The notes under the pieces were generated by a model. It did no database searches. It was not told the DNA's origin and saw nothing but the letters and a program-made list of their open reading frames with translations. This document shows, piece after piece, positions 9,923 to 48,147 of a stretch of DNA of 64,000 nucleotides. The stretch is from the NCBI RefSeq assembly GCF_007752535.1, contig NZ_CP036426.1, positions 8,184,001 to 8,248,000 on the forward strand, in the 5' to 3' direction. The DNA is from Tautonia plasticadhaerens (GTDB taxonomy: Bacteria; Planctomycetota; Planctomycetia; Isosphaerales; Isosphaeraceae). A program made the position numbers and the translations under genes. Position 1 is the stretch's first letter. Each line of letters begins with the position of its first letter.

Positions 9923-9958
9923 TTTTGAGTGACTCCCGCACCCCTCCCCCTCGATAGT
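9923..9958 (+). promoter_or_regulatory. Promoter-like bipartite motif, copy 1
   Basis: Reads ATTTTGAGTGACT, 17 bases, then CGATAGTAT. The same GTGACT-N17-CGAT arrangement occurs at 14566, 40837 and (reverse strand) 48112-48141. Here it lies 128 bases before the ATG of the Ser/Thr kinase gene in the only noncoding stretch after dxs, which is a sensible place for a promoter. The sigma factor is unknown; the elements do not fit TTGACA/TATAAT. Confidence 0.45.
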
Positions 9959-10085
9959 ATCACCGGGCACCGCCGATGCCGCCGGCCGTCCGGAATGAGA
10001 GAACCACCGAGGGGACGGGCAGCGAGCGTCAGCGAATCGCTCCGACCGCCCGCCATCACCTGGCCCGGCCCGGAGTCGCCACCCC

Positions 10086-13000
10086 ATGTCTCCGCCCACC
10101 GCCGACCGCAACCTGCTCTTCGGCATCCTCTCGCTGCAGATAGACTTCATCACGCGAGACGCCCTGATCGCCGCCCTCAACGCCTGGGTCCTCGAGAAGC
10201 ACCGGCCCCTCGGCGAGATCCTCGTCGCCCGCGGCGACCTCTCCGAGGCCCGCCGCACCCTGCTCGAGCTTCTCGTCGACGAGCACGTCCGCCAGCACGG
10301 CGGCGATCCCCGGCGGTGCCTCGCCACCCTCGTCTCGGCCGACTCGACCCGCACCGTCCTGCTCGGGATCGACGACCTCGACGTCCGGGACAGCCTCGGC
10401 CACCTCGACGTCGATCGGCCCCCGGACGGCCCCGCCCGCGCCACCGACGCGACCGGGAGCATCCCGACCGCCCCCGACCCCGACCCCAACGCGACGGTGA
10501 CGTACGTCGTGGGGCCGGATGGCCCCTCCCCCCGCTACCGCGTCCTCCGCCTCCACGCCCAGGGGGGCATCGGCTCGGTCTCCGTCGCCCTCGACTCCGA
10601 GCTGAACCGCCAGGTCGCCCTGAAGCAGATCCAGGAGCCGTACGCCGACCACCCCGAGAGCCGCTCGCGCTTCGTCCTCGAGGCCGAGATCACCGGAGGC
10701 CTGGAGCACCCGGGCATCGTGCCGGTCTATTCGCTCGGCCACGACCCGAACGGCCGCCCCTTCTACGCCATGCGCTTCGTCGAGGGGGACAGCCTCAAGC
10801 ACGCCATCGCCCGCTTCCACGCCAATGCCGACCGGCACGATCCCGGCCGGCGCATCCTCGAATTCCGCCAGCTCCTCCGCCGCTTCCTCGACATCTGCCA
10901 GGCGATCGCCTACGCCCACAGCCGCGGGGTGCTCCACCGCGACATGAAGCCCGGCAACGTCATGGTCGGCCGCTTCGGCGAGACCCTCGTCGTCGACTGG
11001 GGACTGGCCAAGGTCGTCGGCACTCCCGAGGGCTCGGACGAGGCGACCCTGCGGCCCCCCTCCTCCGTCGGCGTCGGCCAGACGGTCGCCGGTAAGGCCG
11101 TCGGCACCCCCTCCTACATGAGCCCCGAGCAGGCCGACGGCCGGCTCGACCTGCTCGGCCCGGCCAGCGACGTCTACAGCCTCGGCGCCACCCTCTACGC
11201 CCTGCTCACCGGCCGCCCCCCCGTCGAGGACCTCGACACCCCCTCGATCCTCGAGCGCGTCCGCCGCGGCGACTTCCCCCCTCCCCGCCTCGTCAACCCC
11301 GACGTCCCCCCCGCGCTGGACGCCCTCTGCCTCAAGGCGATGGCCCTCACCCCGACCGACCGCTACCCCTCCCCGCTCGCCCTGGCCGCCGACCTCGAGG
11401 CCTGGCTGGCTGACGAGCCCGTCTCCTGCTACCGCGAGCCGCCGCCCGTCCGCGCCCGCCGCTGGGCCCGTCGCCACCAGGGGCTCGTCTCCGCCGCCGC
11501 CGCCGCCTTCGTCATCGGCTTCGCCGCCCTCGCCGCCCTGGCCGTCGTCATCACCTCCTCCAATCGCCGCCTCGACGCCGCCAATTTCCTGCTGGCCACC
11601 GCAAACACCGAACTCGCCGACGCGAACACCCGCATCCTCGACCAGAACACACAGCTCCAGGCCACCAACGCCGCCCTCGACCGCTCTCGGGCCGAGGCCC
11701 TGAGGGAACGCGACCAGTCCCGGGTCGTCACCGAGTTCCTCATCACCAGCTTCCGAAGCCCCGACCCTGGACGCGACGGCCGCACCATCACCATCGTCGA
11801 AATCCTCACACGCTCCCTCGACGACCTCCGCGACCGCGACGCCCTCGCCCCGCCCACCCGGGCCGCGATCCTGAACGCGATCGGCCAGTCCTACCGCGGC
11901 CTCGGCCTCACGCGAGAGGCGGTCGACGTGCTCGAGGAGGCACGGGCCCTCTCCGCCGAACACCTCGGCCCCGACCACCCGGACACCCTCCGATCGCAGA
12001 ACGAGCTCGGCATGGCCTACTGGGACGTCGGCCGGAGGGACGAGGCCATCGCGATGCACGAAGCGACGCTCCGTGCCTGGCGGTCGACGCTCGGCGACGA
12101 CCACCCCGAGACGATCACCACGCGCGGCAACCTTGCCGGCGCCTATGCGGACTCCAGCAGGCATGCCGAGGCGGTCCCGCTCGCCGAGGCGAACCTCCGC
12201 GCGGCGAGGTCGGCATACGGCCCCGACCACCCGGACACCCTGACCTCCCAGAATACCCTCGCATTTGCCTATCAAAATGCGGGCCGGCTCGACGAGGCGG
12301 CCCCGCTGCTCGAGGCCAACCTGGAGGCCGTGCGCCTCGCTCATGGCGACGACCACCCCGTCACCCTCACCGCCCGGAGCAACCTCGCCGAGGCATACCG
12401 GGAGTCAGGCCGCTGGGACGAGGCGATCCCATTGTTGCAGGCGACCCTCCCGGCGATGCGGGCCGCGCTCGGCGACGACCACCCCGACACCCTGCGAACG
12501 CAGAGCAACCTCGCCACCGCCTTCCTGTCCGCGCACCGCTGGGATGAGGCGATCCCGCTGCTCGAGGCGACCCTCCCGGCGATGCGGTCGAAGCACGGCG
12601 ACGACCACCCCGTCACCCTCACCGCCCGGAGCAACCTCGCCGGCGCCTATCAGCAAACGGGTCGCTGGGACGAGGCGATCCCGCTGCTCGAGGCGACCCT
12701 CCAGGCGATGCGGGCCGCGCTCGGCGACGACCACTTCAACACGATGGCCGCCCGGAACAACCTCGCCACCGCCTACGCGTCCTCCGGCCGCTCGGCCGAG
12801 GCGCTCCCGCACTTCGAGGCGACCCATCGTGCCTTGCAGTCGATATTCGGCGACGATCACCCTACCACGATGACCGCCTTGAACAACCTCGCCGTCACCT
12901 ACCAGAAAACCGACCGCCTGGACGACGCAATCGCGCTCCACGAACGCAACCTGCACGCGGCGCGATCGAAATTCGGCGACGATCACGCGCATACGCTGAC

Positions 13001-13784
13001 CTCGCTGAATAACCTTGCCGGCGCCTACATGGACGCAGCCCGCTGGGACGAGGCGATCCCGTTCGCCGAGGCGAACCTCCGCGCGGCGAGATCGACGCGC
13101 GGCGACGACCACCCCGATACCCTCCGGGCCAAGAATAATCTCGCCGAGGCCTACCGCGGCGCGGGCCGCCGGGACGAGGCGATCCCGCTGCTCGACCAGG
13201 CCCTCGACGGGTTGCAAACCCAATTCGGGGCGCAGCATCCCTGGACGACCCGGACACGGGGCAACCTCATCCTGGCCCTCGAAGAGGCGGGCCGCCACAG
13301 CGACGCCGAGCCGCTCCATCGCGACCAGCTCGACGCGGACGGGCGTCGGGAGCCTGCGGATGAGCCCGCATACGCCGATGCGCTCGCGATGCTCGGCCTG
13401 AACCTCCTCATCCAGCGGGAGCACGCCGAGGCCGGACCGGTCCTCCGCGAGTGCCTGGAGCTCCGCGATCGGCTCGATCCCGGTGCCTGGACGACCGCCA
13501 ATACCCGGTCGATGCTTGGCGAGGCTCTGACCAACCTCGGGCAGTTCGACGAGGCCGAGCCCCTCCTGCTGGACGGCCGGCGGGACCTGGAGGATCAAGC
13601 CGACGCGATCCCGGACCAGGTCCGCGAGTCGCGCCGCCGCGAGTCCATCGAACGGCTCGTCCGGCTCTACGAGTCCTGGGGTAAGCCCGAGCCGGCGGCG
13701 CGGTGGCGGCGGGAGGTCGCGGCGTTGCGAGCCGAGCCGGGGCTGCCGGACGACGTGTTCGCCGGCTCGGAGGCGGGCCGATAG
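10086..13784 (+). CDS. Transmembrane Ser/Thr protein kinase with kinesin-light-chain-type TPR array
   Basis: Hanks-type kinase of 1232 residues. Order: an N-terminal helical region with FGILSLQIDFITRDALIAAL (1-90) seen in planctomycete kinases; kinase domain about 150-435 with VALKQI (K180), HRDMKPGN (D286), DWG instead of DFG (D304), and GTPSYMSPEQADGR; a transmembrane helix about 467-490; a Gln/Asn/Leu heptad-like coiled coil to 560; then about eleven 42-residue TPRs from 595 to 1080 with the GDDHPDTL..NNLA..Y pattern; and a helical C terminus. The TPR half is on the far side of the membrane from the kinase and probably senses or binds a partner. No substrate or phosphatase gene is adjacent. 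Confidence 0.9.
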   Translation: MSPPTADRNLLFGILSLQIDFITRDALIAALNAWVLEKHRPLGEILVARGDLSEARRTLLELLVDEHVRQHGGDPRRCLATLVSADSTRTVLLGIDDLDVRDSLGHLDVDRPPDGPARATDATGSIPTAPDPDPNATVTYVVGPDGPSPRYRVLRLHAQGGIGSVSVALDSELNRQVALKQIQEPYADHPESRSRFVLEAEITGGLEHPGIVPVYSLGHDPNGRPFYAMRFVEGDSLKHAIARFHANADRHDPGRRILEFRQLLRRFLDICQAIAYAHSRGVLHRDMKPGNVMVGRFGETLVVDWGLAKVVGTPEGSDEATLRPPSSVGVGQTVAGKAVGTPSYMSPEQADGRLDLLGPASDVYSLGATLYALLTGRPPVEDLDTPSILERVRRGDFPPPRLVNPDVPPALDALCLKAMALTPTDRYPSPLALAADLEAWLADEPVSCYREPPPVRARRWARRHQGLVSAAAAAFVIGFAALAALAVVITSSNRRLDAANFLLATANTELADANTRILDQNTQLQATNAALDRSRAEALRERDQSRVVTEFLITSFRSPDPGRDGRTITIVEILTRSLDDLRDRDALAPPTRAAILNAIGQSYRGLGLTREAVDVLEEARALSAEHLGPDHPDTLRSQNELGMAYWDVGRRDEAIAMHEATLRAWRSTLGDDHPETITTRGNLAGAYADSSRHAEAVPLAEANLRAARSAYGPDHPDTLTSQNTLAFAYQNAGRLDEAAPLLEANLEAVRLAHGDDHPVTLTARSNLAEAYRESGRWDEAIPLLQATLPAMRAALGDDHPDTLRTQSNLATAFLSAHRWDEAIPLLEATLPAMRSKHGDDHPVTLTARSNLAGAYQQTGRWDEAIPLLEATLQAMRAALGDDHFNTMAARNNLATAYASSGRSAEALPHFEATHRALQSIFGDDHPTTMTALNNLAVTYQKTDRLDDAIALHERNLHAARSKFGDDHAHTLTSLNNLAGAYMDAARWDEAIPFAEANLRAARSTRGDDHPDTLRAKNNLAEAYRGAGRRDEAIPLLDQALDGLQTQFGAQHPWTTRTRGNLILALEEAGRHSDAEPLHRDQLDADGRREPADEPAYADALAMLGLNLLIQREHAEAGPVLRECLELRDRLDPGAWTTANTRSMLGEALTNLGQFDEAEPLLLDGRRDLEDQADAIPDQVRESRRRESIERLVRLYESWGKPEPAARWRREVAALRAEPGLPDDVFAGSEAGR

Positions 13785-14561: not shown

Positions 14562-14597
14562 TTTCGAGTGACTGCCGACCGCCCTTTCCACGATAAT
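14562..14597 (+). promoter_or_regulatory. Promoter-like bipartite motif, copy 2 (head of array A)
   Basis: ATTTCGAGTGACT, 17 bases, CGATAATTT. The spacer GCCGACCGCCC is shared with copy 4 on the reverse strand at 48112-48141. It lies 18 bases after the Uma2 stop and points into a 600-base stretch with no gene, so if it is a promoter its product is noncoding. Confidence 0.45.
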
Positions 14598-15190
14598 TTG
14601 GTCGAGGGGGCTCGTCGCCTCATGCGCCCATCGTCCGTCCCCGCCGACGCTCGGACGGTCCGTCGTCGCTCCTTGGCAACCCGATCAGCCAGTCCCAAGG
14701 GAACTCGGCCGACCCCGACGGGCCAGAATCGGCTCCCCAGCGAGTCCCGACGAAACGAACCCAATGGCCCCTCGCTCGATCGACGGAACGAACCCAACTC
14801 GTATTCCGTAACCCCTGTCGGGAAGACCAGAACGGACAATCCAACGCCGGTGCAATTCGGCGCACCAGCCCGTCGACCTCGGCGTCCCGATTCGGATCCG
14901 GAGCCGAATGGGCCCCCCGGATCGGGCCACGATCAGGCGCGACGAAACGAACCCGATCGGGCGGGGCCGTTTGACGGAGCGAAGCCAATTCAAATCCCGG
15001 AAGTCCCATACTGGATTGGGACATCGGGCCAATTCTCCGGGCGCACCGCAGCGCACCGGCCTCCGTCGGGGCCGGATCGAGGAGCGTCGTCGAATCCCGA
15101 GGACCGTTCTCGGGAGGGATGCGGACGACGACCCCGGCGGGCGCCGGGGCCGTCGTCCCGGGGCGATCGCGGATGCGATCGCCGGGGGGT
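14598..15190 (+). repeat. Intergenic repeat array A
   Basis: No convincing gene is visible in this 646-base gap between convergent genes. It holds degenerate repeats: GACGGAACGAACCCA near 14782 and GACGGAGCGAAGCCA near 14973, each followed after about 75 bases by GGCGCACC(A/G). Two further partial copies (GACGAAACGAACCC) are at 14750 and 14941. The leader carries GCTCCTTGGCAACCCGA at 14668, which recurs at 40919 in array B. The following AACCCCTGTCGGGAAGACC also aligns with array B. The same element family is present at 40.9-41.5 and 47.4-47.9 kb. Confidence 0.6.
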
Positions 15191-20182: not shown

Positions 20183-22669
20183 TCAACCGGAGGGGACGGC
20201 CCCGGCCCGCTCGGCGGTCGTCTCGCCGCAGCCGAGGTAGCGACCGGAGAGGCGGTAGTCGACCGGGGCCAGGCCGACCTCGGCCATCAGGCGATGCAGG
20301 CCCGATCGGGTGAAGAAGTGCAGATGCTCGGCGACGCGCCACATCGGGTCCCTCGGGCCGAGGGCCCGGGCCCAGGCGCCGTCCCGGTTCGGGGTCGACA
20401 CCCAGGCCAGCCCGCCGGGCTCCAGCAGCGAGGCCACGACCTCCAGCCCCCTCCTCGGGTCGGGGAGGTGCTCGATCACGTCGCCGAGCAGGACCACCTC
20501 GAACCGACGGCCCCCGAAGGGGAAGCCCAGCAGGTCGCCCCGGAGCAGTTCGACGCCGAAGCGGCGGATGCTCTCCTCGAAGGCGGGGTTCACCTCCAGC
20601 GCCGAGACCTCGAAGCCGAGCTCGGCCGCCGCCCCGGCCATCACGCCGCCCGCCGCCCCCACGTCGAGCAGCCGGCCGCCCGGCCGACGGGACCGGAGGC
20701 GGTGCACGACGGCCGACGCCTTCCGCAACGATTCGTAATTCCAGGTGACCAGGTGGGGCGGCGGCGGCGAGGCCAGCGCCTCGGCCAGCGCGGCGGGGGT
20801 CGGCCTCGGGTCGGCCATCCCGTGCCCGCAGCCGAGGCAGCGGGCCCAACGCCGGACGGGGTCGATCGCCGTCGGGGTGGAGTCGGCGGCCAGGCAATTG
20901 ACGACCCGGATCGTCTCCCGGTCCGACGCGCCGCAGACCGGGCAGGCGGGGGCCGGCTCGGCCCGGTAGGCCCTGGCCGTCACGGCCAGGCGGTGCGGCG
21001 CCCCCTCGGGGGCGACCCGGGCGGCCAGGCCCGGGTCGGCCACCACGGCGAGCCGGTGCAGCCGGGTCGCCTCGTCGAAGTCGCCCCGGGCGTCGGCGAT
21101 CGTCCCGAGCCGATAGGCCATCAGCCCTTCGAGATAACCCTCGTCGAGCAACTCCCGATAGATCGCCTCCGCCTCCTCGACCCTCCCGGCCGCCAGCTCC
21201 CGATCGGCCCGGGCCAGCGACTCGGCCGCTCCGGGGGGGTCGGGGATCGCCCGGAGGGACGCGGCGGGGGCGGTCCCCACCCCGGTCTCGGCCATTCCCC
21301 CTCCTGCCCCCCGCGCTCGGGGTGCGGGCGGGGGTGAGGGGGCCGGCGTGGCCTCCTTCGGCCCTGAGCCCACCCTCGCCCACCCCGCCCCCGGGCCCGC
21401 TCGCATCGGGGGCGGGGGTGGCGAGGGTGGGCCGTCGTCTCGTGCGCCCGGCCCGGCACCGTCCCCGAGCCGTCTCCGCAGGTCCTCGGCCGCATCGGCG
21501 CCCCCGGGGCACCGGGCGAGCTGGTCGGTCGCCTGGCGGGCGGCGTCATGGAACCCGTGGGCGAGGTACAGCTCGGCCAGCCCCCGCCAGGAGGGGCCGA
21601 AGTGGGGGGCCTCAGCCGAGGCGGCGCGCCAGTGGGTCTCGGCGTCGGCGTCCCGGCCCCGCTCACGGCAGATCTCGGCCAGGTTGTGGCGGGCCCGGTG
21701 GCCCCGGATCCCCGGGTTGTAGCCGGCCGTCAGGTAGGAGGGGGCCGGGCCGGAGATGAGCCGGTTGAGCAGCGTCTCGGCCCCGGACGGGTCGCCCCGC
21801 TCCCGGAGCAGCAGGGCTTCGAGGAAGGTCAATTCGTCGTCGTCCGGCAGCGCCGCCCTGCCCTCCCGGCAGATGGCCAGCGCCTCGTCGGGGCGGCCGA
21901 GCGCGTGGGCGTCCCGGGCCCAGAGCGAATAGAGCTTGCGCAGGTAGCTGATGGTGGGCGTCGACCGGGCCCGGGCCTCGGGCCAGATCGCCATCGCCTC
22001 GTCGAGCCGACCGAGGACGTGCAGCGTCCAGGCGAGGTTGAAGAGCGTGAAGCCGTCGCCCGGCCGCTCCGACCGCTCCCGCTCCAGCAGGCGGAGGTTC
22101 CGCTCGGCCTTGCGGCGGTGGGTGGCCGGGTCGCGGTAGCCCTCGTGCTCGAAGGCGATGTCGGTGGCGATGACCCTCGCCCCCAGCCGCTCCAGGCTCG
22201 GCAGGATCTGCTCGTGCACCCGACGCTCCCAGCGCACCTCCGGGCGCCGGGGGAACAGGTGGACGCGGTCGAAGACCACGCGCTCTCCCGGCGCCTCGGC
22301 CACCGAGTTGACCTGGCGCATCAGGTAGCCGGCCGGCTCGTCGCCGAGGCGGGCGATCAGCGACCGCAGGCGGTCCCGGTTCGGCTCGTCGAGCCGGTCG
22401 TCGGCGTCGAGCCAGAGGATCCAGTCGCCGGTGGCGTGGTCGATCGCCGCATTCCGGGCCTCGGCGAAGTGGTCGACCCAGGAGAACTCGACCACCCGGG
22501 CGCCGAACCCGGCCGCCACCTGCCGGGAGCGGTCGGCCGAGCCGGTGTCGACCACCACCACCTCGTCGACCAGGTCGGCCACCGAGCCCAGGCACCTCGG
22601 CAGGTCCCGCTCCTCGTCCCTCACGATCATCGTCAGCGAGACCCGCCGCCGCCCCGTCGCGTCGGCCAT
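20183..22669 (-). CDS. Glycosyltransferase 2 / TPR / methyltransferase fusion
   Basis: 828 residues. Residues 8-200 are a GT-A glycosyltransferase family 2 domain (SLTMIVRDEERDLPRCLGSV, VVVDTGSADRSRQVA, WILWLDADD). Residues 200-410 are TPR-like helices. A Pro/Gly-rich linker of about 60 residues is encoded by a palindromic repeat. A second TPR-like stretch follows, then a Cys4 knuckle (CPVCG..., CLGCGHG) and a class I methyltransferase domain (LLDVGAAGGVMAG, VVLLGDVIEHLPDP), as in C-methyltransferase-type sugar enzymes. Start 22669 has GGAGGGAGGG upstream. An internal start at 21295 (MAETGVG) has AGGAGGGGGA before it, so the second half may also be made alone. Role: surface polysaccharide or glycoprotein synthesis, inferred. 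Confidence 0.8.
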   Translation of the reverse strand: MADATGRRRVSLTMIVRDEERDLPRCLGSVADLVDEVVVVDTGSADRSRQVAAGFGARVVEFSWVDHFAEARNAAIDHATGDWILWLDADDRLDEPNRDRLRSLIARLGDEPAGYLMRQVNSVAEAPGERVVFDRVHLFPRRPEVRWERRVHEQILPSLERLGARVIATDIAFEHEGYRDPATHRRKAERNLRLLERERSERPGDGFTLFNLAWTLHVLGRLDEAMAIWPEARARSTPTISYLRKLYSLWARDAHALGRPDEALAICREGRAALPDDDELTFLEALLLRERGDPSGAETLLNRLISGPAPSYLTAGYNPGIRGHRARHNLAEICRERGRDADAETHWRAASAEAPHFGPSWRGLAELYLAHGFHDAARQATDQLARCPGGADAAEDLRRRLGDGAGPGARDDGPPSPPPPPMRAGPGAGWARVGSGPKEATPAPSPPPAPRARGAGGGMAETGVGTAPAASLRAIPDPPGAAESLARADRELAAGRVEEAEAIYRELLDEGYLEGLMAYRLGTIADARGDFDEATRLHRLAVVADPGLAARVAPEGAPHRLAVTARAYRAEPAPACPVCGASDRETIRVVNCLAADSTPTAIDPVRRWARCLGCGHGMADPRPTPAALAEALASPPPPHLVTWNYESLRKASAVVHRLRSRRPGGRLLDVGAAGGVMAGAAAELGFEVSALEVNPAFEESIRRFGVELLRGDLLGFPFGGRRFEVVLLGDVIEHLPDPRRGLEVVASLLEPGGLAWVSTPNRDGAWARALGPRDPMWRVAEHLHFFTRSGLHRLMAEVGLAPVDYRLSGRYLGCGETTAERAGAVPSG
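21369..21431. repeat. GC-rich palindrome inside the GT2-methyltransferase gene
   Basis: Two 24-base arms (CCCACCCTCGCCCACCCCGC and its near-exact complement) separated by about 15 bases. It is in frame and encodes the PSPPPPPMRAGPGAGWARVG linker. Similar CCCTC/GAGGG-type repeats occur between genes at 36225 and 37940. Confidence 0.6.
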
Positions 22670-40831: not shown

Positions 40832-40868
40832 ATTTCGTGTGACTGGAAACGGGCCGGGACACGATGGT
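40832..40868 (+). promoter_or_regulatory. Promoter-like bipartite motif, copy 3 (head of array B)
   Basis: GATTTCGTGTGACT, 17 bases, CGATGGTAA. It lies about 100 bases upstream of the Roco start and points the opposite way, into the gene-free array B. Confidence 0.42.
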
Positions 40869-41559
40869 AATGGACGGGGACCCCGCTCGACCGGGGACGC
40901 CCGGCGCCCGTCCGATCCGCTCCTTGGCAACCCGAATCGAGTCGAAGGCCCGACCGACCGCCCGTCGGCCATCGAGGAGACCGGCGTCCGGTCCGGGTCC
41001 CGGCCCATCCCCCCGATTGTCGCACGACGCCCCGCGCGAATCGAACCCAATCCGCCGGTGCGCCCGCGCGGAGCGAACCCATTTCGCCGACGTAACTCCC
41101 GGCCCGATCAGGGAGTCTTCCGGTTCAGTTCGGCGCACCGGGCCGCCCCCGGTCGGCTCCCCGACCCCGCCCTCGGCCGCGGGGCCGGGGCGAGACGACC
41201 CCGGGCATCATCCCGGGGCGATCCTCCTCGGAGGCGTTCCCGGAGTCCGGCGCGAGACGAAGCCATTTCCCCGGTGCGCCCGCGCGGAGCGAACCCATTT
41301 CTCGGACGCAACCCCCGTACTGATCAAGACCTCCGCGATCGGCCGTTGGCGCACCGGCCCGTGCCGGGGCACCCGAAGTCGTGCCCACCCCGAGGGCACG
41401 CCGGGGGTCGGGCCCGGGGTCGGGACGACCCCGGTCACCGTGCGCGAATCGAACCCAGTTGCCCGGTGCGCTTGCGCGGAGCGAACCCATTTCTCTCCGA
41501 AAACATCTTGTCCTACAACGACTTGCGTCAATCCCAATCGGCGCACCGATCCCCGGGCC
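40869..41559 (+). repeat. Intergenic repeat array B
   Basis: An 825-base stretch between the Roco and M24 genes with no convincing gene. Three copies of CCGGTGCGCCCGCGCGGAGC followed by GAACCCATTTC start at 41055, 41271 and 41463 (spacing 216 and 192). Each is preceded by a GCGA(A)TCGAACCCA- or GACGAAGCCA-like string and followed after about 80 bases by GGCGCACCG. The leader shares GCTCCTTGGCAACCCGA (40919) with array A. The copies of the first 31 bases differ in only two or three positions. Confidence 0.7.
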
Positions 41560-42762
41560 CTACTGCCCCGAGGCGGTCGGATCGGCCAGGATGGGCAGGA
41601 CCCGTGTCTGGAGGCCGCCGGTGACGTGGACCTCGCCGGAGGCGTCGACGAAGACGTCGACCTCGGACCGGATGCCGAACTCGGGCAGGTAGATGCCGGG
41701 CTCGATCGAGAAGCAGGTCCGGGGCAGGACGAGGCGGGTCTCGTGGGTCTCCAGGTTGTCCATGTTGGCGCCGTTGCCGTGGGTCTCCTCGCCGATGCTG
41801 TGACCGGTCCGGTGAATAAAGGCATCGCCATAGCCGGCGGCCTCGATGACCTGCCGGGCGGCGTCGTCGACCTCGAAGCCCCGGAGGGGGGTCCCGGTCC
41901 GGGAGGCGTCCTCGACCCGGGCGATGGCGGCGTCCCGGGCCCGGGCGACGACCCGGAAGACGGCCTCGTATTGCTCGGGGACCTCGGTGCCGACGAAGCC
42001 GACCCGGGTCAGGTCGCTGTAGACGCCCCCGGGGCGGTCCATCTTGGCCCAGAGGTCGATCAGGACGAAGTCCCCTTCGCGGATCTCCGCATCCTGCCCG
42101 GCTTTGGGCTCGTAGTGCGGGTCGCCGCTGTGGGGCCCGACCCCGACGATGGGGGGGGAGTAGGTGGTCATGCCGTTGCGGTGGAAGTGGTCCATGATGA
42201 CCGCCTGCACCTCCGCCTCCCGGATGGAGCCGCCGCCGGAGCAGCGCCCGGCGATCAGGCCGAAGGCGACGTTGAAGGCCTCGGTCGTGTGCCCGGTGGC
42301 CTCCCGGTGCATCGCCCACTGCTCGTCCGACCACGAGGCCTCGAACCGCTGGATCAGGTCCCCGGACGGCCGGACCTCGACGCCGAAGGAACGGACCAGC
42401 TCCACCACCCCGGCGTCGACCCGGGCGATGTACGGGTTCGAGAGCCGGGGGGCGTACTCCATCGCCACCGCCTTCGATCCCCCGACGAGCGACCGGACCC
42501 CCTCCTCCAGCTCCTGCCATCGGAGGTACGCGGTGGCCTCGCCCGGCAGGTGGTCCAGGGCGCCGGGCTCGATCCGGTGGACCAGCTTCCTCGGCTCCCC
42601 CTGCCTCGGGATGAAGTAGAGGAATCGGCGGGTCGTCTTGGCCTTCTCGGGGAGGCCGAGCACCCGTCGGGCCAGCGGGTTGCTGCCCCGGAAGTCGTAC
42701 AGCAGCCAGCCGTCGAACCCGAACTGGCCGAGGGCCTCCTGGACGGCGGTCAGGTCGAACAT
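41560..42762 (-). CDS. M24 family metallopeptidase (Xaa-Pro aminopeptidase-like)
   Basis: 400 residues. N-terminal creatinase-like domain (about 1-160), then the pita-bread fold. Metal ligands can be read in order: DLWAKMD (first Asp), SDLTRVGF (second Asp), HRTGHSIG (His), SIEPGIY (Glu) and RSEVDVFV (Glu). Likely a dipeptidase or aminopeptidase; the odd SGDPHYEPKAGQDAEIREGD segment also fits the family. It lies 119 bases downstream of the amidase gene on the same strand and may belong to that transcript, suggesting a joint role in amide or peptide degradation. Confidence 0.87.
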   Translation of the reverse strand: MFDLTAVQEALGQFGFDGWLLYDFRGSNPLARRVLGLPEKAKTTRRFLYFIPRQGEPRKLVHRIEPGALDHLPGEATAYLRWQELEEGVRSLVGGSKAVAMEYAPRLSNPYIARVDAGVVELVRSFGVEVRPSGDLIQRFEASWSDEQWAMHREATGHTTEAFNVAFGLIAGRCSGGGSIREAEVQAVIMDHFHRNGMTTYSPPIVGVGPHSGDPHYEPKAGQDAEIREGDFVLIDLWAKMDRPGGVYSDLTRVGFVGTEVPEQYEAVFRVVARARDAAIARVEDASRTGTPLRGFEVDDAARQVIEAAGYGDAFIHRTGHSIGEETHGNGANMDNLETHETRLVLPRTCFSIEPGIYLPEFGIRSEVDVFVDASGEVHVTGGLQTRVLPILADPTASGQ

Positions 42763-42881
42763 GGCGGGCTCCCGGGGTGGGAAATGACGGATGGAGGAGG
42801 TTGGATGGCCGGTGGCCGGGGACGGGTCATGCCGGGTCGGCATTCGACGGCCGCACCGGGCGGGCCGACCATCCTCCGGCC

Positions 42882-47195: not shown

Positions 47196-47410
47196 GATCG
47201 GCCTCGCTCTGCCTGCGACTCCGGGTCGGCACCGACCCGAGGGCGACTGTATCGGCCCCCGTCCGGGACGGTCAAGCCAGGGTCCTCGCCCCCCGGTCGC
47301 TCCCCGAGCGGCCTTCCCCGGGCCGGGCATCCCGGGCCCCGGGCGGAGCCCCCCTGCCCTGCGGCGTCCCCATCGGCCCGAGACGACCCGGTGCGCCTCC
47401 GGGATCGGCC

Positions 47411-47851
47411 CGGTGCGCGCACAACAGAATGCGATTTCCATTACCGAATCAGGACTTGCGTCCGAGAAATGGGTTCGCTCCGTAAATCGGCGCACCCGAT
47501 CGCTCCCCGGCCCGGTCGAGCCACTCCCGGCGGGGCGGTTTGCCGGCCGGATCCGGCCGGTGCGCCAGACGCGAACCGCGATCTTCGTTGTGCGACAATG
47601 AGTTCGGTCGGACAAATGGGTTCGGTCCGCGAACCGGCGCACCGGGACGCCCGTCGGCCGAGTCGATGGATCTTCGACGGACCGGTGCGCCGGAGAGATG
47701 GGGCCGGTGCGCCAAACGCGAAGTGCAATATTTGTTTCCGGGAAACGAGTTGCGCCGACGAAATGGCTTCGCTCCGTCAACCGGCGCACCCGAGCATCGG
47801 CCCCCCGGAGGCGTCCCTCAAGTGTCCCCCCTCCGCTCGCCCCTTGCCCGA
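47411..47851 (-). repeat. Array C: three tandem 147-bp repeats
   Basis: Units begin with CGGTGCGC at 47411, 47558 and 47705, exactly 147 bases apart. Within each unit the conserved blocks are CGGTGCGCC(A), then GA(C/G)(G/A)AAATGG(G/C)TTCG(C/G)TCCG and GGCGCACC(C/G). On the reverse strand the core is GAACCCATTT, as in arrays A and B. Outside these blocks units diverge strongly. The reverse frame stays open through all three units (49 codons each), but it has no start signal and codon pattern is poor, so I do not call a gene. Confidence 0.75.
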
Positions 47852-48111
47852 CGCGACGGGGGCCGGCGACCGCCATCTGGGGGGACCCGAGGAGGGCCGG
47901 GATCGGGCGGAGGCCTCTCGGGCGATCCGCGATCGGGGGACGACCACGCCCCCTGAGGGGTCGATCCGCGCACCGCGATCGTCGCGGCGGTGGTCGGTTC
48001 GATCGTCGATCGGGAAGGGCCGGAGGCATCGCGGTCGGGTCTCGGGGGTCGATCGTGCCAGAGTCAAGGCGGACGACGACCGCCCCAGGCCGGCCATCGC
48101 CCCCCTCAATA
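47852..48111 (-). other. Leader-like region of array C
   Basis: About 260 bases between the head motif and the first 147-bp unit, in the reverse direction. No gene seen. It contains GTCCGCCTTGACTCTGGCAC, loosely similar to the CTCCTTGGCAACCCGA string in the leaders of arrays A and B. Confidence 0.35.
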
Positions 48112-48147
48112 AGATCGAGGATCGGGCGGTCGGCAGTCACAAAATCT
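48112..48147 (-). promoter_or_regulatory. Promoter-like bipartite motif, copy 4 (head of array C)
   Basis: On the reverse strand: ATTTTGTGACT, the 17-base spacer GCCGACCGCCCGATCCT, then CGATCTTATT. Eleven spacer bases (GCCGACCGCCC) are identical to copy 2. It reads into array C. The 229 bases between it and the toxin gene (48148-48376) hold nothing recognised. Confidence 0.42.

Follow-up and report, generated by a model that had tools for sequence, protein, structure and literature searches.

Sequence analysis of array B, a directional multi-motif array of Tautonia plasticadhaerens with elements in common with a multicopy protein family

Judged from its sequence, array B of Tautonia plasticadhaerens is a directional, multi-motif noncoding array that is conserved at its locus and is one of dozens in this genome. 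By the same kind of evidence, its head is common to arrays and protein-coding genes, and its box is common to arrays and the genes of a family of paralogous proteins, labeled STGP here after the STGPRTAEGK motif that they have in common at the N terminus. We tentatively propose that the arrays are transcribed, noncoding platforms that offer multiple docking sites for STGP proteins.

Within the 64,000-nt stretch of DNA analyzed (the window), array B (positions 40839 to 41547, + strand) comprises three units preceded by a head and a leader (Table 1). The initial annotation described three copies of a 31-base block, CCGGTGCGCCCGCGCGGAGCGAACCCATTTC, and these indeed start at 41055, 41271, and 41463, the third with two changes; the motif said to trail each block by about 80 bases is GGCGCACC, exactly 77 nt from each block start. 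Likewise, the core reported on the reverse strand in array C is found at 47481, and the leader sequence ascribed to both arrays A and B, CTCCTTGGCAACCCGA, has exactly two occurrences in the window, one in each. Having the same plan (head, leader/boxes, GGCGCACC), arrays A, B, and C are one kind of element, as had been proposed. The 21-base core gave three matches at up to 3 mismatches in the window versus none in 100 dinucleotide shuffles. Two features can be added, namely, a second, weaker box that precedes each main box by 32 nt and inner CGCAA/TTGCG-type motifs inside the array B units. Other parts of the description were not supported. A constant pair of GGTGCGCC and GGCGCACC arms does not hold since the left arm is absent from many units. 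Nor is there support for a special tie to the divergent Roco gene (domains Roc, COR, and LRR) on one flank of array B: the strands of the genes flanking 50 array loci are evenly distributed, without orientation bias [(+,+) 14, (-,+) 12, (-,-) 12, (+,-) 11, unknown 1], and the congener array stays by the M24 peptidase gene. The latter lies convergently on the other flank, where the last GGCGCACC of array B stops 12 nt short of its stop codon. A tRNA-like array was considered and rejected, the sole tRNA detected in the window being a tRNA-Arg (ccg) at 22488 to 22581 on the - strand.

Table 1. Array elements and associated features in the window
Feature	Position	Strand	Description
Array B head	40839-40872	+	GTGACT, 17 nt, CGATGGTAATG; promoter-like
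Array B leader element CTCCTTGGCAACCCGA	40920-40935	+	Common to array A (14669)
Array B unit 1	41038-41139	+	Weak box 41038, GGTGCGCC 41057, main box 41070, GGCGCACC 41132; spacing 62
Array B unit 2	41254-41355	+	Weak box 41254, GGTGCGCC 41273, main box 41286, GGCGCACC 41348; spacing 62
Array B unit 3	41446-41547	+	Weak box 41446, GGTGCG 41465, main box 41478, GGCGCACC 41540; spacing 62
Convergent M24 peptidase gene	41560-42843	-	Array neighbor kept in three congeners
Array A	14568-15047	+	Head 14568, leader element 14669, box pairs 14752/14785 and 14944/14976, GGCGCACC 14859 and 15040
Array C	47390-48140	-	Head 48140; three units, leftward reading
Further head	9929-9959	+	No boxes; 157 nt ahead of predicted Ser/Thr kinase-TPR gene start (10086)

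Allowing at most one mismatch, GGAGCGAANCCATTTC has 114 matches in the own genome versus none when read backwards, and a sequence profile built from 57 units (cutoff, E ≤ 0.05) finds at least 151, with 150 of 2,400 candidates scored. The 124 matches listed group into 73 clusters, of which 39 contain multiple units and none has mixed strands; the noncoding arrays among these matches are fewer than 73 since several single clusters sit in STGP genes, and units missed by the profile would add to them. Orientation was assessed at 53 loci that each carry one or more strict boxes, including the three arrays of the window and leaving out 12 named STGP loci. Each locus was oriented by its own boxes, and the test therefore lies in the lack of opposite boxes and in the position of the head. 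All 113 strict boxes were on one strand, with none opposite within 700 nt. The GTGACT-N17-CGAT head, whose fixed orientation at each cluster the initial annotation proposed as a check, was present with at most one substitution within 650 nt upstream and on the same strand at 51 of the 53 loci, compared with 5 downstream and 12 on the other strand, as counted with this loose pattern. Scattered single copies lacking heads and orientation bias, the mark of an ordinary REP-like repeat, were thus not what we found, though 8 of the 53 loci hold one strict box only. Exact matches to the head number 46 in the own genome (none reversed) and 21, 19, and 1 in the congeners, with one reversed match overall.

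The surroundings of the head were inspected in 20 fetched stretches and at the window head at 9929. Boxes lay downstream in 12 of these 21 cases, six heads were boxless and preceded a gene start predicted by a simple codon-usage caller 150 to 273 nt downstream, and three had neither. The six genes encode an STGP protein, the Ser/Thr kinase-TPR protein of the window, two laminin-G proteins, a member of the endonuclease/exonuclease/phosphatase family, and a DUF433 protein. Because some protein genes also have the head ahead of them, it is most likely a promoter, and it may define a regulon. In the window at 9929 to 13784, this array-type head is followed by the kinase gene, which has many TPR repeats and no boxes.

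Array units also occur in the 3' coding ends of STGP paralogues that start near a head, where the usual spacing is 108. The own genome holds 28 STGP matches, some partial, and relatives are found in Acidobacteria, Phycisphaerales, Alphaproteobacteria, and other groups; of 137 loci from that scan, 80 were retained. A box in the sense direction within the last 360 nt was found in 9 of 27 own and 3 of 3 congener STGP genes (none antisense or at the 5' end in both sets), in 9 of 26 genes of the bacterial-family set (antisense, 1; 5' end, 0), and in 23 of 63 cross-phylum genes (antisense, 10; 5' end, 3). The cross-phylum set lost 17 of the 80 loci, which were open-ended or masked, and has some genes from one genome; one gene (L217/L154) is counted in two sets. 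Taking all sets together, three reading frames are used for the box and yield NEP-, ERTQ/KQSQ-, and TNP-type peptides, with one frame used in eight of the nine own-genome boxes. Since the frames are mixed, this argues that the nucleotides rather than the peptide are conserved. One STGP protein that was searched had no match in Pfam, NCBIfam, PHROGs, or PDB sequences, and the family had none in phages. The structure predicted for the searched protein (pLDDT, 79.7; pTM, 0.62) shows long coiled coils and, at the N terminus, a helical pair; no Foldseek match was obtained at E ≤ 0.001, and VIA-align returned helical look-alikes (best Z, 8.1) that are uninformative as to a relative.

Boxes and STGP proteins tend to occur in the same genomes. 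Among 45 genomes of Isosphaeraceae, in which AACRAASCCAAT has 1,372 matches versus 17 reversed, at least 10 boxes were present in 20 of the 28 genomes with a strong STGP match (E < 1e-35) and in none of the 17 without (P = 1e-6, kinship ignored). At cutoffs of 1e-30 and 1e-6, the figures were 20 of 29 versus 0 of 16 (P = 4e-6) and 20 of 35 versus 0 of 10 (P = 0.001), again ignoring kinship. Box number and STGP copy number have a rank correlation of 0.49 in these genomes. Two genomes with one STGP match each, G031 and G032 (loci L404 and L405), contain 226 and 158 boxes, and three others are nearly boxless: G033 has no boxes, G024 has 33 STGP matches and 2 boxes, and G006 has 23 matches and 1 box. 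Beyond the family, 28 genomes chosen through loci were covered. Five other Planctomycetota had 109, 47, 54, 27, and 26 matches to AACRAASCCAATTT (reversed, 0, 0, 0, 0, and 1), two Acidobacteria had 6 and 5 (none reversed), and the remaining genomes outside the family had 0 to 6. GAACGAACCCAA has matches in 75 of 246 Planctomycetota genomes, mostly 1 to 3 each, like its reversed control. The element is patchy across the phylum. At 20 loci of other Planctomycetota (G297, G298, G291, and G295), chosen for closely spaced matches, 52 boxes lay on one strand and none on the opposite strand. A loose promoter scan of these loci proved nondiscriminating (upstream, 11; antisense, 6; downstream, 8), and the exact pattern TTGAC-N17-19-TAnnnT, run afterwards, was found upstream at 9 loci (4 masked), antisense at none, and downstream at 2. 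A search of plasmids gave two records.

We infer that the array is transcribed from its head and that the boxes are candidate docking sites for STGP-family proteins. Transcription would start at the head and yield a noncoding array transcript, and STGP proteins would dock at its boxes. With several sites in register, the protein could assemble along the array, whether as transcript or as DNA undergoing transcription. The arrays might then serve as decoys or scaffolds, controlling how much STGP protein is free or where it resides, and the protein could recognize its own gene or mRNA through the matching sites at the 3' end. This docking reading draws on the fixed heads, the 113:0 strand distribution of the boxes, and the heads before six boxless genes; on the confinement of box-rich Isosphaeraceae to genomes with a strong STGP match and the many boxes of G031 and G032; on the mainly sense, frame-variable boxes of STGP genes, the preserved M24 locus, and the quantized spacing described below; and on the promoter pattern that precedes 9 of 20 loci in other Planctomycetota. 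Counting against it are the genomes with STGP proteins and hardly any boxes (G033, G024, and G006), the antisense boxes in 10 of 63 cross-phylum genes, the different spacing in other genomes, and the fact that related genomes are nonindependent points. Possibly, in a system of the Planctomycetota with traces in Acidobacteria, STGP proteins and genome-wide, promoter-driven noncoding arrays, with motifs roughly a turn of the double helix apart, form protein-nucleic acid assemblies that regulate STGP genes and organize the chromosome or transcripts, a view that we hold as tentatively as the docking itself.

A unit has four motifs, CGGAGCGAACCCATTTC (the main box), CGCAAnTC, TTGCG about 24 nt after it, and GGCGCACC; a weaker box often lies 31 to 34 nt ahead of the main box, and the closing motif GGCGCACCG often has a second copy 10 to 12 or 21 to 23 nt on. 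The units analyzed for spacing had been selected on the presence, no more than 125 nt away, of a motif resembling GGCGCACC (n = 154, with 128 being the last box of a unit). From the main box to the first GGCGCACC, the distance was 62 to 64 (47 units), 73 to 77 (42 units), 84 to 86 (24 units), 96 to 98 (5 units), or 108 (9 units). The first-to-last spacing was quantized in 127 of the 128 units, at about 63, 74, 85, 97, and 108, with a fitted step of 11.26 and a phase coherence of 0.905 versus at most 0.387 in 1,000 jittered sets, a fit to be read with this selection and the common ancestry of the unit copies in mind. Distances from box 1 to GGCGCACC alone peak at 11.3, and broad period peaks were obtained for box-to-box distances (12.5; n = 39), GGCGCACC-to-GGCGCACC distances (11.9; n = 53), and all 220 pooled (10.6). 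Length is added ahead of CGCAA or behind TTGCG, by about one turn per step. The quantization suggests sites on one face of the double helix; for bacterial DNA loops in vivo, a helical repeat of 11 bp per turn has been reported (PMC8501960). Because spacings differ in other genomes (79 between paired boxes in G003, 34 to 37 in G007, and 51 to 53 in most G297 units), helix phasing is shown for the own genome only.

Phasing points to duplex DNA and orientation to RNA, which suggests a tension within the docking reading; speculatively, a protein that meets the DNA during transcription would fit both. Alternatively, the arrays may work purely as DNA, as phased sites for a protein (STGP or other) whose role would be chromosome bending or bridging or the control of neighboring genes, with any transcript being incidental. 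We regard this as an unlikely alternative. It would accommodate the closeness of the step to the repeat reported for in vivo DNA loops (PMC8501960), as well as the sparseness of the clusters among the matches listed in the middle of contig C1 and the failure to find an RNA fold (see below). However, it needs neither the one-strand order behind a head nor the mainly sense placement in STGP genes, and box-to-box spacings by themselves do not single out 11.26.

Rfam gave no match in the window (gathering threshold), in the array region (E ≤ 1), or at six other Planctomycetota loci (E ≤ 0.5). An RNA hairpin or attC-like site was rejected as half-unit swaps showed no gain for native units (z positive in 11 of 12, maximum +2.3, and -0.3 in the other). 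Consensus folding against column shuffles gave z values of -0.3 to -0.8 for spacing classes 63, 64, and 74, and of -3.8, -2.8, -6.4, and -10.6 for classes 62, 86, 108, and 84. The stems are mainly the outer GGTGCGC/GCGCACC pair in classes 62, 64, and 108 and are short in classes 84 and 86, and some units may therefore still have invariant stems. An alignment of 14 G297 sequences had four pairs and no compensatory change.

Conceivably, the arrays are selfish or relict elements, that is, deletion derivatives of STGP genes that kept the promoter and 3' boxes and multiplied by an unspecified route. STGP genes and arrays are preceded by the same head, and a truncated STGP start lies among array boxes at about 584 to 951 of locus L351 (G298), as if a deletion within an STGP gene had given rise to the array, and a short remnant of STGP is present at L147. 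Profile matches also vary within the genus, from at least 151 in the own genome to 57, 13, and 7 in three congeners. Against this stands the conservation of array loci. At the 3' end of the M24 gene, a head and units are found in the same place and orientation in all three congeners; by eye, there are two, two, and one units with drifted boxes, none of which fits CGAA[CG]CCA in G040. Eleven other congener loci were compared by their flanks: six arrays (L109, L110, L112, L113, L114, and L117) have flanking DNA in common with own-genome arrays, two (L111 and L116) with the STGP locus L052, one (L118) aligns chiefly with STGP genes and, over 376 bp, with the L093 flank, and two (L115 and L119) had no match. 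Moreover, the motifs are kept while the remainder diverges (identical columns, 22 to 40% in three aligned sets, with the boxes standing out by eye), and viral contigs contained no arrays, only 47 single matches. We consider this origin improbable as an account of the arrays. An ordinary REP-like or decayed coding repeat (NEP/ERTQ peptides) that is functionless by itself is very improbable: copy number is high, the boxes are coding in STGP genes, and 49 of 53 arrays have one or more open frames spanning the boxes, as is common at high GC, but the encoded peptide differs between frames although the DNA is retained, the heads and orientation do not vary, and successive boxes lack a common frame (their spacings leave remainders of 0, 1, and 2 modulo 3 in 26, 11, and 23 cases), which also led us to reject a coding array.

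The arrays resemble several known systems in part. REP/BIME repeats are linked to RAYT transposases, which are of the HUH tyrosine type (PMC3733652). Our element is alike in its many short intergenic copies and its tie to a protein family that carries the same sequence, but its main box is nonpalindromic, only some units have GGTGCGCC/GGCGCACC arms, its arrays stand in fixed orientation behind a promoter-like head, and the linked STGP protein lacks a Pfam, NCBIfam, or PHROGs match. A second comparison is with decoy RNAs of the CsrB type, which carry many copies of one protein-binding motif. Promoter-like head, many copies of a short motif in one orientation, and presence of the motif in genes are features in common; in contrast, the arrays occupy dozens of loci per genome and are helix phased, and their transcript and partner protein are putative. 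Integron attC arrays have units with outer and inner inverted arms round a variable center, as do outer GGTGCGCC/GGCGCACC and inner CGCAA/TTGCG here. However, native units are no more stable than half-swapped ones, so that unit-specific self-complementarity is missing, and the outer left arm is often absent.

Searches of an open-access library gave no description of the array element. Given this and the absence of matches in Rfam (array) and in Pfam, NCBIfam, and PHROGs (one STGP protein), the system may, with caution, be called undescribed so far. One DNA motif joins a multicopy protein family that has no name in the databases searched, its odd C-terminal peptides (NEP, ERTQ, and KQSQF), and dozens of intergenic arrays per genome. 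Planctomycete nucleoids are unusual and condensed, and a chromosome- or transcript-binding system of such size, if true, would be a new part of this picture. Genomes with one STGP match and more than 150 boxes make the idea of a factor and its sites testable through one gene.

Along contig C1, the clusters among the matches listed number 13, 10, 9, 8, 3, 1, 4, 9, and 13 per ninth, and the thinning in the middle perhaps corresponds to the terminus half. Arrays are also present on the small contigs C2, C5, and C6 of the own genome, which are possibly plasmids. Beside a convergent gene, own-genome arrays often end 14 to 34 nt from the 3' end of that gene, and beside a codirectional gene, the gap is mostly 100 to 400 nt.
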